A program made the translations under genes and the position numbers. Shown piece after piece: positions 23,250 to 34,657 of a stretch of DNA of 40,281 nt. How positions within the stretch are numbered: the stretch's first letter is position 1; each line of letters starts with the position of its first letter. The notes under the pieces are model-generated. The model worked only from the letters and a program-made list of their open reading frames with translations. It did no database searches and had not been told where the DNA came from. The DNA comes from Patescibacteria group bacterium (GTDB lineage: Bacteria > Patescibacteriota > Patescibacteriia > UBA11705 > JABHMO01), in contig JAHIRY010000017.1 of the NCBI GenBank assembly GCA_018818405.1, positions 71,563-111,843 of the forward strand, in the 5' to 3' direction.

Positions 23250-23277
23250 CCCTCCATTGTACCACTTACGCAGCAAG

Positions 23278-23805
23278 CCGCGGGGAATTTACCCCAAAGC
23301 GATTAAATATGTGCCTAAACTTGTGGAAAATAAGCAATATTACCAATTTACAGCCATTGACTGCGCTACTCGATGGCGATATTTGGAAATCTATGATGAC
23401 CACTCCAACCTTTCATCAATAAAATTTTTAGAGAAAGTAATATCGATAGCTCCCTTTAGAATAAAAGCGATCAAAACAGACAATGGCAGTAATTTTACCA
23501 ATCGCTACACCGGTTATTTGAAAAGTTCTGATCCGATAAATCCTAAATTGCATGAATTGGATATTGTTTGTCAAAAATATAACATTATCCACTACCTCAT
23601 TGATCCGGGCAAACCCGCTCAAAATGGCAAGGTGGAACGTAGCCACAGATCAGATCAAGAGATATTTTACAACCGCGTGATGTTTACTAACTTACTTGAA
23701 CTTAACCGCAAAATTAAAATTTGGAATAAGCAATATAACAACTTAGAGCATTGCGGTCTTAATGGTAAAACACCAAACGAAATGTTAAAATTATTAACAA
23801 ACTAA
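23278..23805 (+). pseudogene. 5'-truncated DDE integrase-core (rve) transposase, IS481-like
   Basis: AIDCATRWRYLEIYDD, IKTDNGSNF, KPAQNGKVERSHRSDQEIFY; no N-terminal HTH region; abuts the IS200 remnant. Confidence 0.75.
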
Positions 23806-23907: not shown

Positions 23908-24126
23908 ATGATAATAAACGTAAAAGTCACGCCCAGAGCTTCGAAAAACGAGGTGGTGAAAGTTTCTGACAACATATATAGAATCAAAGTGACTGTTCCG
24001 CCGGAAAAAGGAATGGCCAATGAAATGGTAATTCAGTTGCTCGCAAAGGAACTGAAAGTACCGCGCTCAAACATTTCTATAAAAGCGGGCGCAGGAGTCC
24101 GAGAAAAATTAATTGAAATAAAATAA
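23908..24126 (+). CDS. YggU/DUF167-family protein
   Basis: 72 aa; VKVTPRASKNEV, PPEKGMANEMVIQLLAKEL. Confidence 0.88.
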   Translation: MIINVKVTPRASKNEVVKVSDNIYRIKVTVPPEKGMANEMVIQLLAKELKVPRSNISIKAGAGVREKLIEIK

Positions 24127-24130
24127 AAAA

Positions 24131-24156
24131 AGCTCTGAATTCACAGAGCTTTTTAT
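24131..24156 (+). terminator. Intrinsic terminator
   Basis: AGCTCTG-aattca-CAGAGCT then TTTTT. Confidence 0.85.
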
Positions 24157-24225
24157 TTCAAAAAATCTTTTTCTCCACTTTGACAATAATTTTATTCATT
24201 TCACAAGTGTCGTAAAACACAACAA

Positions 24226-24247
24226 CATTGTTCCACGTGGAACAATG
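24226..24247. promoter_or_regulatory. parS site 1
   Basis: Perfect 22-bp palindrome CATTGTTCCACGTGGAACAATG containing the parS core TGTTCCACGTGGAACA. Confidence 0.92.
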
Positions 24248-24554
24248 CAACTGCGCACATTCCCCGCGCAATTTTTTTTTGTAAAATTCCGGCGAAATTA
24301 AAACCTTTTCTTTTCCACTAAACGCAATCCAGTCGCCGCTTCATCATTCCCCAACATTACAAAAAAAAATTTAAATCACAAAATCGTTCAACCGCTGACT
24401 TTCACCAAAACAAACACCGAAAAACTTCCTTAACTTGTTTATTACAAAACAATTCAACGATCCGCAAACTTTCTCACACTAACCCAAAACTACAATTATA
24501 TTTCCACAAAGAAAATCTCAATATATTTTAAATAAAAAATCAAAAAAAAATCGA

Positions 24555-24578
24555 ATTGTCTAGACTGGTGTGTACAAA
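24555..24578. repeat. 24-bp imperfect palindrome, copy C
   Basis: ATTGTCTAGACTGGTGTGTACAAA, related to copies at 33355 and 33473. Confidence 0.6.
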
Positions 24579-24607
24579 CGCAGACAAATTACCCACTTTT
24601 CAACAAC

Positions 24608-24647
24608 TTATCCCCAGTTTACCACGCATTTTCCACACTTATTCACA
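24608..24647 (+). promoter_or_regulatory. DnaA-box-like cluster
   Basis: TTATCCCCA (24608), TTTTCCACA (24629), TTATTCACA (24639). Confidence 0.65.
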
Positions 24648-24828
24648 AAATCAACATAAATAAACACAACACAATTCCAAAAAAAATTCACCGCCCACCA
24701 AAAATTTCAATCCGAAAAACAACATCATTGGAACCGAAACAAAAAATATTGAAATCAACAACAATTAATTTTCAACAAAAGGAACTGAATCCTTCTTCTC
24801 AATAAAACAAAAAAAAATCAGCATCCCT

Positions 24829-24850
24829 GCTGTTTCCAAATCATCACTGA
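24829..24850 (-). terminator. Terminator-like hairpin of the tRNA-Arg(CCT) transcript
   Basis: On minus strand CAGCA-ggga-TGCTG followed by a T-tract. Confidence 0.55.
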
Positions 24851-24927
24851 AATTCCGAACCCCCTAAAATCGGTTAATGGCTCGCCAGGAACCAACAAAA
24901 CCTTCGCTTATCCGAATCCAAGTTAAT

Positions 24928-24996
24928 GGCTTGCCATGAACCAACGCAAACTTCGCTTATCGTCCATTCTCAACTTAAAAAGCGTTTGGTTCATGG
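24928..24996 (-). repeat. tRNA-Arg trailer repeat, copy 2 (66/69 identical to 27412-27480)
   Basis: Aligned by eye; contains inverted repeat CCATGAACCAA...TTGGTTCATGG. Confidence 0.9.
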
Positions 24997-25068
24997 TGCT
25001 CTCGGGCGGAATCGAACCACCATCGTATCCTTAGGACGGATCCGCTCTATCCATTGAGCTACGAGAGC
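24994..25068 (-). tRNA. tRNA-Arg (anticodon CCT), CCA encoded
   Basis: Cloverleaf on minus strand GCTCTCG...CGAGAGCACCA, loop GTCCTAA, T-loop TTCGATT. Confidence 0.93.
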
Positions 25069-25091
25069 ATTCACCCCAGACCAACCAGCAA

Positions 25092-25111
25092 AATGTTCCA
25101 CGTGGAACATT
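25092..25111. promoter_or_regulatory. parS site 2
   Basis: Perfect 20-bp palindrome AATGTTCCACGTGGAACATT. Confidence 0.92.
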
Positions 25112-25348
25112 CACGCCCCACAAACTCGACACAAATCAACGTTTTGCGTAAATCTTAAGTAAACTTTGCGTCGTAAAACATTACACTAATTTCAAAATAT
25201 TATCTGTGTGCGCATCTTACAATTTTCCCCGCTTTTTTCCTGTGCTTTTTTGCCGCAACTTTTTGCTTTTTGTTCATACGCTTAATTCTTTTATTTCAAA
25301 ACCGAACAAATTAATCTTATATCAAACCGTCGCTTATAGCAATCACAC

Positions 25349-27752: not shown

Positions 27753-28697
27753 TCACTTCTTCTTTCCTCTCCTATTATGAAACGCTTTGTGCACATCGCG
27801 CAACTGTTGATCAGTAATATGCGTATAAATCTGCGTTGTTGTGATGGAAGAATGTCCGAGCATTGACTGCACTGAACGCAAATCAGCGCCGTTTATCAAC
27901 AAATCGGTTGCAAAACTGTGGCGCAATGTATGCGGAGTGACAACTTTGTTTATTCCCGCAACCTTTGCGTATTTTTCCACAATTCTCTCCACGCTTCTGG
28001 CTGTCAATCCTTTTGCTTCTTCTTTTTCCCTTTTTTCCAATGCTCTGTCATGCCCGACAAACAAAAACTCATTGTCATCTTTTCTGCTTTTCAAATATTG
28101 CCCGACCCAATATTTCGCCTGATTGGAAATAAAAATGATTCGCACTTTTCCGCCTTTTCCTCTGATGGTAAATTCATCTTTTTTCAGAGAAATGTCAGCT
28201 CTCTTCAAATTCACCAGCTCAGAAACTCGCAAACCCGTGCAAAATAACATTTCCAAAATCGCTTTGTCCCGATATTGAATGAGCTTGTTTTGTCCAACCT
28301 TGTTCGGACTTTCCAATAAATTTTCCAGATCAGCGCCTTCGAGAAAATCAACCATTCTCATCGGCATTTTTGCCAGCTCGATTTTTTCCGGAGCCAATGT
28401 TTGCACATCTATCTTTGATAAATATTTCAAAAAAGCCCTGAGCGCGATCAAATGATAATTCTGCGTATTTTTCTTCAAATTGCACTTTCGCACCGGATCA
28501 ACCAGCCGATTGAGCCACAACCTGTATTTGTCAATCATTTTCAAGGTAATTTTCGTCGGATCAGTTATTTCCCGTTCCTTCAGCCAGCCGGAAAAACGAT
28601 GCAAATAAAAATCATAATTGCGCACGGTTTTTTCCGAACGCCCTTTTGCTATCTCTATATTTTCCAGAAACTCGGTGATCAGTTTGTCGATTGTCAT
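27753..28697 (-). CDS. Tyrosine recombinase, XerC/XerD-like
   Basis: 314 aa; FCTGLRVSELVNL, TPHTLRHSFATDLLINGADLRSVQSMLGHSSITTTQIYTH. Confidence 0.94.
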   Translation of the reverse strand: MTIDKLITEFLENIEIAKGRSEKTVRNYDFYLHRFSGWLKEREITDPTKITLKMIDKYRLWLNRLVDPVRKCNLKKNTQNYHLIALRAFLKYLSKIDVQTLAPEKIELAKMPMRMVDFLEGADLENLLESPNKVGQNKLIQYRDKAILEMLFCTGLRVSELVNLKRADISLKKDEFTIRGKGGKVRIIFISNQAKYWVGQYLKSRKDDNEFLFVGHDRALEKREKEEAKGLTARSVERIVEKYAKVAGINKVVTPHTLRHSFATDLLINGADLRSVQSMLGHSSITTTQIYTHITDQQLRDVHKAFHNRRGKKK

Positions 28698-32129: not shown

Positions 32130-33368
32130 ATGAGCAAATTCATTTTCAAACAAATCTATCGGCTGTTTCCTTATGCGCTTTTTTTTATTTGTCTGATTTT
32201 CCTTTTCTGCAATCACCTCGACACGCTCGCATCCGAAATCCCGGCTCAAGCGGAAATCTATTTTCATGCCAATGCAAAGGATATTCAACAAATTCCGCGA
32301 GAACAAAAAGACATTATTCTCAACTGGCTGGAAAAGGGAAGCACTGTTTCGCGCGATTCCTGGCAAGAACTTTTCAATGCTTCAGCCGATGAAATCGGAA
32401 TTTTTACGCTAAACAAACAAATATTCGGAATAACAAAAAATAATCCGGCTGTTATTTCCATATTGCAAAATAGAAATATTGAATTCTCCCTGAATGAAAA
32501 TGCTCTTTATTTTCCTTCATTAAATGTTGCTGACAAGAAAATTTCAACTGAACCATGGTACATGGAAAGCAAAAGAAAAATCAATTTCGCGAAATACAAT
32601 CTTTTCCTCAAAAATTCCTCGGCAATTGCCATTCTCCAATCCTTCTCTGAAATAAATACGACCAAACCGGTCAGCGCGTTTGGAAAATTGGAAAACAATC
32701 ATCTGATTTTCAATATTTATGGCAATGTTGGCCAAGAAAAATTAAAATCAAGCGAACCTCATGTTATTTCTCTCGGAAATACGGCAAATTTCTATTTCAG
32801 AGGAATATTGCCGGAAACAATCGCGCAAAACGCTGATTATTCAGAAGAAAACATCAAATTTTTGTTGATTAAATCGCTCAAAGGTTCAATCGAATATCTG
32901 GACATGAGCGACCGGTTCATTATTTACGCTGACAAACAAAACAATTCCATGGAATCAATCGAAAAAAGCATTCTCACAATATTCGCGTTTCTCGATCCGA
33001 CGGAAAAAATAAAACTGTTGCCCGATGAAACAGAATCAATCCAATTGATCGCTGATCCTAGCCGCTGGCAATTTTCAAATGTTGGCAATACTGAACAACA
33101 AGTCCGAAGACTGGACAACATCAGACCAAACACAACTTTTTCAATTCATGAAAAAGACAACTTCTATATTATTGCAAAAAACATTGATTCCGCTGACATT
33201 TCACTTTTTGAAGTTGGCGCCAATGAACCTGCGAAAATCGGCGGCTGTCACTTAAATACAAAACAGATAAACGCATTCGTCAATGGAAAAATTTGGCAGG
33301 ATTCTTTCTTTCACAACCTCGTTGTATCAAATGAAAGAGCTGACAGACTATCTGTTTGTATAGACTAG
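32130..33368 (+). CDS. Hypothetical exported/membrane-anchored protein (412 aa)
   Basis: N-terminal signal/TM segment; no family confidently recognised. Confidence 0.75.
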   Translation: MSKFIFKQIYRLFPYALFFICLIFLFCNHLDTLASEIPAQAEIYFHANAKDIQQIPREQKDIILNWLEKGSTVSRDSWQELFNASADEIGIFTLNKQIFGITKNNPAVISILQNRNIEFSLNENALYFPSLNVADKKISTEPWYMESKRKINFAKYNLFLKNSSAIAILQSFSEINTTKPVSAFGKLENNHLIFNIYGNVGQEKLKSSEPHVISLGNTANFYFRGILPETIAQNADYSEENIKFLLIKSLKGSIEYLDMSDRFIIYADKQNNSMESIEKSILTIFAFLDPTEKIKLLPDETESIQLIADPSRWQFSNVGNTEQQVRRLDNIRPNTTFSIHEKDNFYIIAKNIDSADISLFEVGANEPAKIGGCHLNTKQINAFVNGKIWQDSFFHNLVVSNERADRLSVCID

Positions 33369-33378
33369 TGTAGACAAA
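33355..33378. repeat. 24-bp imperfect palindrome, copy A (overlaps stop codon of 32130-33368)
   Basis: TTTGTATAGACTAGTGTAGACAAA. Confidence 0.7.
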
Positions 33379-33472
33379 TAAGTGAACAACAATTATTCAT
33401 CTTTGAAAAAGTTGTAAAAATAATTCCATTCGCAAACCGCTGTTTCACATAAAAACTACGCGAAATCCGCGG

Positions 33473-33496
33473 TTTGTATAGACCAGTGTATACAAA
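33473..33496. repeat. 24-bp imperfect palindrome, copy B
   Basis: TTTGTATAGACCAGTGTATACAAA; flank ATANGTGRACAAC shared with copy A. Confidence 0.75.
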
Positions 33497-33498
33497 TA

Positions 33499-33548
33499 TG
33501 TGGACAACTCGCACTAATCCACATACTTATCCACAGTTTTTATCCACC
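33499..33548. promoter_or_regulatory. DnaA-box cluster
   Basis: TTATCCACA (33527, exact), TAATCCACA (33515), TTATCCACC (33540), reverse TTGTCCACA (33499-33507). Confidence 0.65.
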
Positions 33549-33607
33549 ACTTTTCTCACTAAATTCAACGATAGCAACTTAATTTAGATAAAAACTGCGA
33601 TTTTACA

Positions 33608-33636
33608 TTGACGCAACATTTTTATAATGCTATAAT
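33608..33636 (+). promoter_or_regulatory. Promoter TTGACG-N17-TATAAT with TG extended -10
   Basis: ttgacg-caacatttttataatgc-tataat. Confidence 0.75.
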
Positions 33637-33642
33637 ATAAAT

Positions 33643-34018
33643 GTAAGGGGCTGATCCACGCATCAGCACTGCACAAATTAATTGTTCTTTTGCTCTTTCC
33701 ATCCAATTTTTTCAAATTTGGAAAAATTCACTCTTTTTTACTCCACTTTACCGGTCTGCGTCAACCAGACCTTCGAAGTCAAAAAAAACAAAAATAAAAA
33801 CGAACTAAACATGGGGAGCTTCACGGCTAACCCCAAAGAGGGGTAAAAACAGGCTTTGTTGACGGGCACACATTTCCCTAATTTTGTTCTTATAGATACT
33901 CATATTGCGGCAAAATAAAACTTCGCTTCAATACGAGTATCTATCAGAGCTTGCAGGGTTTGGCGCGAACTGGCCACATATTAATTTCAATTGGGCTCAT
34001 GATCGCGCCTTTTTTTTT
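33643..34018 (+). ncRNA. Candidate structured ncRNA (~375 nt), unknown family
   Basis: Promoter at 33608, terminator at 33962-34018, several perfect hairpins, no plausible ORF. Confidence 0.5.
33962..34018 (+). terminator. Terminator with long apical region
   Basis: GGCGCGA...TCGCGCC followed by T9. Confidence 0.65.
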
Positions 34019-34288: not shown

Positions 34289-34657
34289 ATGACAAAAGAA
34301 GACATCCAAGCAATTAAAAACAAACTGCTTTCCGACAAAGAAAATCTTGAAATGGAATTGGCAAAAATCGCGACGAAAAATCCGCACAATAATGAAGATT
34401 ACAACGCAAAATTCGATGACTACGGTTCAGATGAATCGGACAGCAGTTCCGAAGTGGTCACCTTTGGACTGAATTTGTCGCTGGAAAAAACGCTGGAAAA
34501 AAGCCTGCAAGACGTGAATAAAGCGTTAAAAAGAATCGCGGATGGAGAATACGGCATTTGCAAATACTGCAAACAAGAAATAGAAGCGAAAAGACTTTTG
34601 GCGCGTCCCACTTCCAGCGCTTGCGTCACCTGTAAAACAAAATTAAAATCATTGTAA
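34289..34657 (+). CDS. DksA/TraR-family zinc-finger protein
   Basis: 122 aa; DGEYGICKYCKQEIEAKRLLARPTSSACVTCK. Confidence 0.9.
   Translation: MTKEDIQAIKNKLLSDKENLEMELAKIATKNPHNNEDYNAKFDDYGSDESDSSSEVVTFGLNLSLEKTLEKSLQDVNKALKRIADGEYGICKYCKQEIEAKRLLARPTSSACVTCKTKLKSL

Follow-up and report, generated by a model that had tools for sequence, protein, structure and literature searches.

A parS centromere locus with DnaA-box-like sites and a candidate operator for a small HTH protein in a Patescibacteria genome

In chromosomal ParABS systems, parS is bound by ParB/Spo0J and the sites are clustered close to the origin (PMC7333895), and the ParB residues that separate parS-type from Noc-type recognition have been described (PMC7383237). 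The parS locus of Caulobacter crescentus carries DnaA boxes, and DnaA acts there (Mera et al. 2014, as described in PMC6399470), and in Vibrio cholerae the rctA/parS2 centromere is also bound by RctB, the initiator of the secondary chromosome (PMC6399470). The datA and DARS2 loci of Escherichia coli are IHF/Fis-dependent clusters of DnaA boxes in which the distance to the IHF site is important (PMC4585315). The timing of replication and segregation in the ultra-small, mostly uncultured CPR bacteria appears, by comparison, almost undescribed, and among 5.4 million open-access papers we found, on parS, ParB or DnaA boxes in CPR lineages, only a passing description of an origin.

The DNA analysed in the present study (the window; 40,281 nucleotides) is the right end of contig C40 (positions 71563–111843 of 111843) of a Patescibacteria genome (G000), a draft of 48 contigs and 1,059,643 bases (1.06 Mb) that is 100% complete. 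By protein comparison of the PNPase of the window, the closest named relative found was a Candidatus Falkowbacteria genome (71% identity), and further relatives belonged to the Buchananbacteria, Magasanikbacteria and Komeilibacteria, which places the genome in the Patescibacteria/CPR, in a class that is probably ABY1 of GTDB. The comparison set comprised 240 genomes of the class, including genomes of the window's family (f1; among them G000–G003), members of the same order (G003 and G009) and a further genome of the same class (G085). As several of these genomes share ancestry, the counts of sites given below are not counts of independent events.

The parS pair, its interval and ParB

The original prediction, made from the window alone, placed two perfect canonical parS palindromes approximately 865 bp apart. 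Both are exact copies of TGTTCCACGTGGAACA, at 24229–24244 (parS1, inside a 22-bp perfect palindrome, CATTGTTCCACGTGGAACAATG) and 25094–25109 (parS2, inside a 20-bp perfect palindrome), with a start-to-start distance of 865 bp, and no other exact copy occurs anywhere in the 1.06-Mb genome, for which base composition predicts 0.0002. The genome also encodes a single protein with a ParB_N domain (C2:3217–4098; E 5.8e-33), adjoining a gene for a ParA-like ATPase (C2:2401–3162) on a contig apart from both parS and dnaA. This ParB matches solved chromosomal ParB/Spo0J structures with E values down to 4e-50, retains GERR as well as the GISR arginine and the EGHA glycine, and has a CTP-binding motif together with recognition residues of the parS type, not the Noc type (positions mapped by eye against PMC7383237). 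Exact 16-mers that are not dispersed, in a genome with one ParB, agree with the assignment as chromosomal parS. The absence of dnaA, dnaN and parAB from the window was likewise read correctly, all of them being located on other contigs of G000; in G003, G009 and G085, the stretches of contig examined that carry dnaA and parS yielded no relative of parA or parB.

Across the class, the exact 16-mer was found in 60 of the 240 genomes, in one to eight copies each, and the form TGTTNCACGTGNAACA in 107. Where parS is multi-copy, the sites form clusters of approximately 0.1–2.1 kb among the genomes listed, with the exception of G117, in which they are split over contigs, and the distance between dnaA and parS, in genomes with both on one contig, is approximately 5 to 130 kb. 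Three of the four other family members (G001, G002 and G003) have exactly two sites, 0.6–1.0 kb apart, adjoining genes for a XerC/D-like recombinase, rpsO and pnp. In the window, the XerC/XerD-like tyrosine recombinase (27753–28697, − strand; Pfam/NCBIfam) is such a conserved neighbour, and the same gene and parS neighbourhood was seen in G001–G003 and G009.

The interval had been taken as intergenic, and the parS pair does lie between genes, but the region is not gene-free, as a tRNA-Arg (CCT) gene is located inside it (24994–25068, − strand; ARAGORN and Rfam), approximately 25 bp from parS2, with tRNA-like sequence at the corresponding place in G001, G002 and G003. tRNAs were the only Rfam matches over the window. 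From the other side, the gene for a YggU/DUF167 protein (23908–24126, + strand; Pfam PF02594, E 1.7e-22) points towards the interval, convergent with the tRNA gene. Two smaller reading frames were also noted: an integrase-core (rve) ORF of 182 residues (23257–23805, + strand) that adjoins the interval and is possibly a transposase remnant, and a short basic ORF, MNKKQKVAAKKHRKKAGKIVRCAHR, beside parS2 (25200–25277, − strand), with similar short basic ORFs likewise placed in G002 and G003.

Between the parS sites there are, as predicted, an AT-rich stretch (24510–24560, by direct reading) and three DnaA-box-like 9-mers on the + strand, TTATCCCCA (24608–24616), TTTTCCACA (24629–24637) and TTATTCACA (24639–24647), each one mismatch from TTATCCACA. 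The parS-pair intervals of the four family genomes together contain ten such sites, against 1.2 expected from dinucleotide shuffles and a maximum of six in 300 shuffles, and these sites are therefore not there by chance. DnaA-box-like sites were also found within the parS loci of G009, G008, G085, G239, G230 and G064. When 31 parS loci of the class were pooled, the count of DnaA boxes was not significant (17 boxes; permuted motifs gave a mean of 9 with an sd of 8), and the signal is found in the window's family and in loci that bear the candidate operator described below.

Position of the replication origin

The DnaA-box-like sites and the AT-rich stretch had been interpreted as an oriC lying between the parS sites, separate from dnaA, and the retention of the DnaA-box-like sites in the four family genomes would fit such a reading. 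However, the GC skew of the + strand of the window is negative on both sides of 24–25 kb, with no switch. We fitted skew change points, with gene strand as a covariate, in the relatives G003, G009 and G085 (G042, G050 and G020 were left out on account of mixed skew, a contig end or insufficient length). The change point of G003 was at 170.5 kb, with dnaA at 166–167, dnaN at 168, a second cluster of DnaA boxes at 196 and parS at 204 kb; that of G009, in reversed coordinates, was at 84.5 kb, with dnaA at 84, the second cluster at 104 and parS at 113 kb; and that of G085 was at 41.5 kb, with the dnaA–dnaN gap at 41, the second cluster at 52 and parS at 10 kb. The distance from parS to dnaA is 36, 28 and 31 kb respectively, and in G085 parS lies on the opposite side of dnaA. 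Placing the switch at parS instead lowered the log-likelihood by 129, 30 and 50 units in G003, G009 and G085 respectively. In addition, the boxes of the interval are off consensus, whereas the dnaA–dnaN gap of G000 (contig C17) contains seven DnaA boxes, one of them exact, with three more upstream of dnaA. An oriC at parS is thus highly improbable, and the proposed uncoupling of the origin from dnaA is not supported, the strand-corrected change being at dnaA/dnaN in all three relatives.

We gave slightly more weight, while still regarding it as very unlikely, to the idea that the second cluster (33356–33548 in the window) serves the order as functional origin in place of the dnaA region, or as an additional one. 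It contains an exact DnaA box in the window and, in G001, G002 and G003, an inverted pair of exact boxes, and the dnaA–dnaN gaps of G003 and G009 have fewer or weaker boxes. Against this, the change points are at dnaA, and a switch placed at the cluster was worse by 110 (G003), 29 (G009) and 15 (G085) log-likelihood units. A second origin in G003, suggested by weak raw skew across a zone of approximately 90 kb beside dnaA, was rejected, as the strand-corrected skew switches at dnaA and the zone is largely an effect of gene orientation. On contig C40 of G000 the skew also changes sign left of approximately 50 kb (C40, approximately 1–50 kb), which may reflect a past inversion or the joining of contigs.

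The genes at the right ends of C17, which carries dnaA and dnaN, and C40 are adjacent in G003, as are the flanking genes in G002. From these contig ends and relatives, not from a single contig, we infer that the dnaA–dnaN gap of G000 lies approximately 25–27 kb from parS, in line with the fallback reading of the original prediction that the region is only origin-proximal. The origin of G000 is of the ordinary dnaA-linked type, its position being given by synteny, and the parS locus is an origin-proximal centromere and not the origin, because the skew flips at dnaA in the relatives and because of this syntenic distance.

A candidate operator and a small HTH protein

When the four family parS intervals were aligned by eye, a conserved near-palindrome, TTGTATAGACTGGTGTGTACAA, could be seen ahead of the DnaA-box-like sites. 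Its general form, TTGTATASACNNGTSTATACAA, with at most two mismatches, has four copies in G000, and the reversed pattern, used as a control, has none. The first copy, O1 (TTGTCTAGACTGGTGTGTACAA; 24556–24577, + strand), is a 22-bp near-palindrome between the parS sites, beside the AT-rich stretch and between the convergent YggU and tRNA-Arg genes, where no evident promoter or conserved ORF was found in the surrounding interval; counterparts occupy the corresponding place in G001–G003 and G009. Two further copies, O2 (TTGTATAGACTAGTGTAGACAA; 33356–33377, + strand) and O3 (TTGTATAGACCAGTGTATACAA; 33474–33495, + strand), belong to the second cluster. O2 overlaps the end of an ORF of 412 residues (32130–33368, + strand), which has no Pfam or NCBIfam match and is only 24–31% identical to its syntenic counterparts. 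The fourth copy (C35:590–611) ends 21 bp before an ORF of 102 residues (C35:633–941) that encodes a small HTH protein with a predicted MerR/excisionase fold.

This protein matches HTH_17 (PF12728; 34.7 bits against a cut-off of 27) and TIGR01764 (29.4 against 28.8). The predicted fold is a winged helix of the order E-HH-EE-H, nearest to the DNA-binding domains of Xis, BldC and RacA, with low confidence in the C-terminal half; a PDB sequence search found no relative, and the score against the BldC family (NF033787) was far below the cut-off. The gene is present in 126 of the 240 class genomes, in single copy in all but one, and the proteins of distant families are 51–70% identical to that on C35. 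In a phylum-wide sample it was found in 13 of 22 genomes of the same class and in none of 265 from other classes. A phage excisionase with a partner integrase, attachment site and mobile context was considered and rejected on the basis of the conserved, nearly always single-copy gene and the recurring operator loci.

With at most one mismatch, the palindrome occurs in 18 of the 240 class genomes, and the gene for the HTH protein is present in all 18; in 17 it was detected by search, and in G216 its start lies immediately after the palindromes and an assembly gap interrupts it. The co-occurrence is significant (17/18 against 126/240 overall; Fisher p ~1e-4). The palindrome also precedes the gene in G001, G006, G007, G008, G023, G120, G172 and G239. 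In an independent test on 13 genomes that have the protein but do not belong to the canonical operator set, eight have a diverged TTGT-N14-ACAA palindrome upstream of the gene, compared with 0.3% of random 220-bp stretches, which supports the HTH protein and the 22-bp palindrome as a putative regulator/operator pair. As the candidate operator stands behind a promoter and before the protein's own gene, the protein looks to be autoregulated. The conserved recombinase next to parS might instead point to the palindrome as a recombination site of the Xer type for that enzyme, an explanation we find scarcely credible: four scattered copies would delete or invert segments of the chromosome, the palindrome tracks the HTH gene and lies in its promoter in many families, and in our own reading it does not have the two-arm layout of dif.

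In genomes with both a canonical operator and canonical parS, the two are 30–546 bp apart in eight of nine cases, and operators were also found near parS variants in G008 and G230. No operator was present within 1.5 kb of parS in the protein-bearing genomes G171, G153, G051, G205 and G105, or in G023, which rules out an operator near every parS.

The second operator/DnaA-box unit (33356–33548) is located 9 kb from the parS interval, upstream of a dksA/traR-like gene at 34289. Its DnaA boxes (33499–33548) start at 33499 (−), 33515 (+), 33527 (+) and 33540 (+), that at 33527 being an exact TTATCCACA. Operators with DnaA boxes near dksA-like or yifB genes were found in families f1 (that of the window), f4, f58, f64 and f72. 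Measured from the start of the palindrome, the DnaA boxes peak at +25 on the − strand (n=7) and at +52/+53 on the + strand (n=12), where approximately 0.5 per bin would be expected. Copies at parS have a box at +52 (f1 and f4; in the window, TTATCCCCA relative to O1) or +54 (f58), and copies at the second cluster have a box at +53 together with that at +25 (f1, f4 and f72). The window shows the latter geometry at O3, with boxes at +25 (−) and +53 (+), in common with G001, G003, G008, G009 and G172. The DnaA-box-like sites of the parS interval are, judged by this conserved spacing, part of a separate conserved element that consists of the candidate operator and predicted DnaA boxes.

A sigma-70-like promoter that matches the consensus (TTGACG-17-TATAAT; 33608–33636, + strand) stands downstream of the second DnaA-box cluster and before the dksA/traR-like gene. 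With a good promoter downstream, the cluster may simply serve to control transcription. Between this promoter and the dksA-like gene is a partly conserved non-coding stretch, also seen in G002 and G003, that could be a leader RNA, promoter and stretch together covering approximately 33605–34000; Rfam gave no credible match for this putative leader.

This promoter, the likely autoregulation and the several families without an operator near parS would also be compatible with the HTH protein being an ordinary local transcription regulator, with its nearness to parS a matter of inherited synteny and with no role in replication or segregation. We consider this unlikely, though a serious alternative, as the copy at parS lies between convergent genes without an evident promoter or conserved ORF, there are only approximately four sites per genome, of which one is near parS in eight of the nine canonical genomes, parS-near operators occur next to differing genes in three or more families, and the spacing to the DnaA boxes is conserved.

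Proposed function and comparison with known systems

Taken together, we favour, with a probability of about 0.7, a chromosomal ParB–parS centromere that would also be bound by DnaA and the small HTH protein, with the origin at dnaA–dnaN, and that would thereby couple initiation to segregation. ParB, produced from parAB elsewhere on the chromosome, would load at the two parS sites, and ParA, possibly with SMC, would segregate the origin region, with replication starting at dnaA–dnaN and not at parS. The HTH protein would bind its own candidate operator beside DnaA both at parS and at the second cluster, so that the centromere would engage DnaA, the second cluster would titrate or remodel it, and joint occupancy by the two proteins would tie initiation to the first segregation step. 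A centromere with predicted DnaA boxes and a candidate site for the HTH protein suggests one protein that links the copying of the chromosome to its separation. The wider proposal, of a class-specific protein with approximately four sites per genome, beside DnaA at parS, a DnaA-box cluster and its own promoter, which would act as a cell-cycle regulator without a described counterpart by coupling initiation to segregation, we put forward tentatively, at somewhat less than even odds. For the lineage, the dnaA-linked result corrects the idea of a dnaA-uncoupled origin, and a complete set of cis-acting sites (origin, centromere and DnaA-box cluster) with a candidate trans-acting factor and its 22-bp site can now be named across many genomes.

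In its identical 16-bp parS, its single ParB/ParA pair and its origin-near sites, the system resembles chromosomal ParABS elsewhere; it differs in having parAB on a separate contig and in a centromere that also contains the candidate operator of a lineage-specific protein. As in C. crescentus, the centromere locus contains DnaA boxes away from the origin, although here DnaA binding is predicted and the boxes are at a near-fixed distance from the candidate operator of a second protein. The second cluster combines predicted DnaA boxes and a candidate operator at near-fixed spacing away from dnaA; datA and DARS2 of E. coli are likewise non-origin DnaA-box clusters in which a small protein has its DNA site at constrained spacing; however, the protein in question here has a predicted MerR/excisionase fold and is not IHF or Fis, and one copy of the arrangement is located at parS. 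The V. cholerae rctA/parS2 locus likewise has a centromere with sites for a replication initiator, but there the initiator is RctB, of the secondary chromosome, whereas the present genome has a single chromosome and DnaA. In Bacillus, RacA anchors the origin region, and RacA and BldC are, besides Xis, the best matches to the predicted fold of the HTH protein, which differs from them in having no RacA coiled coil, no BldC family match, a different C-terminal half and approximately four discrete sites per genome.
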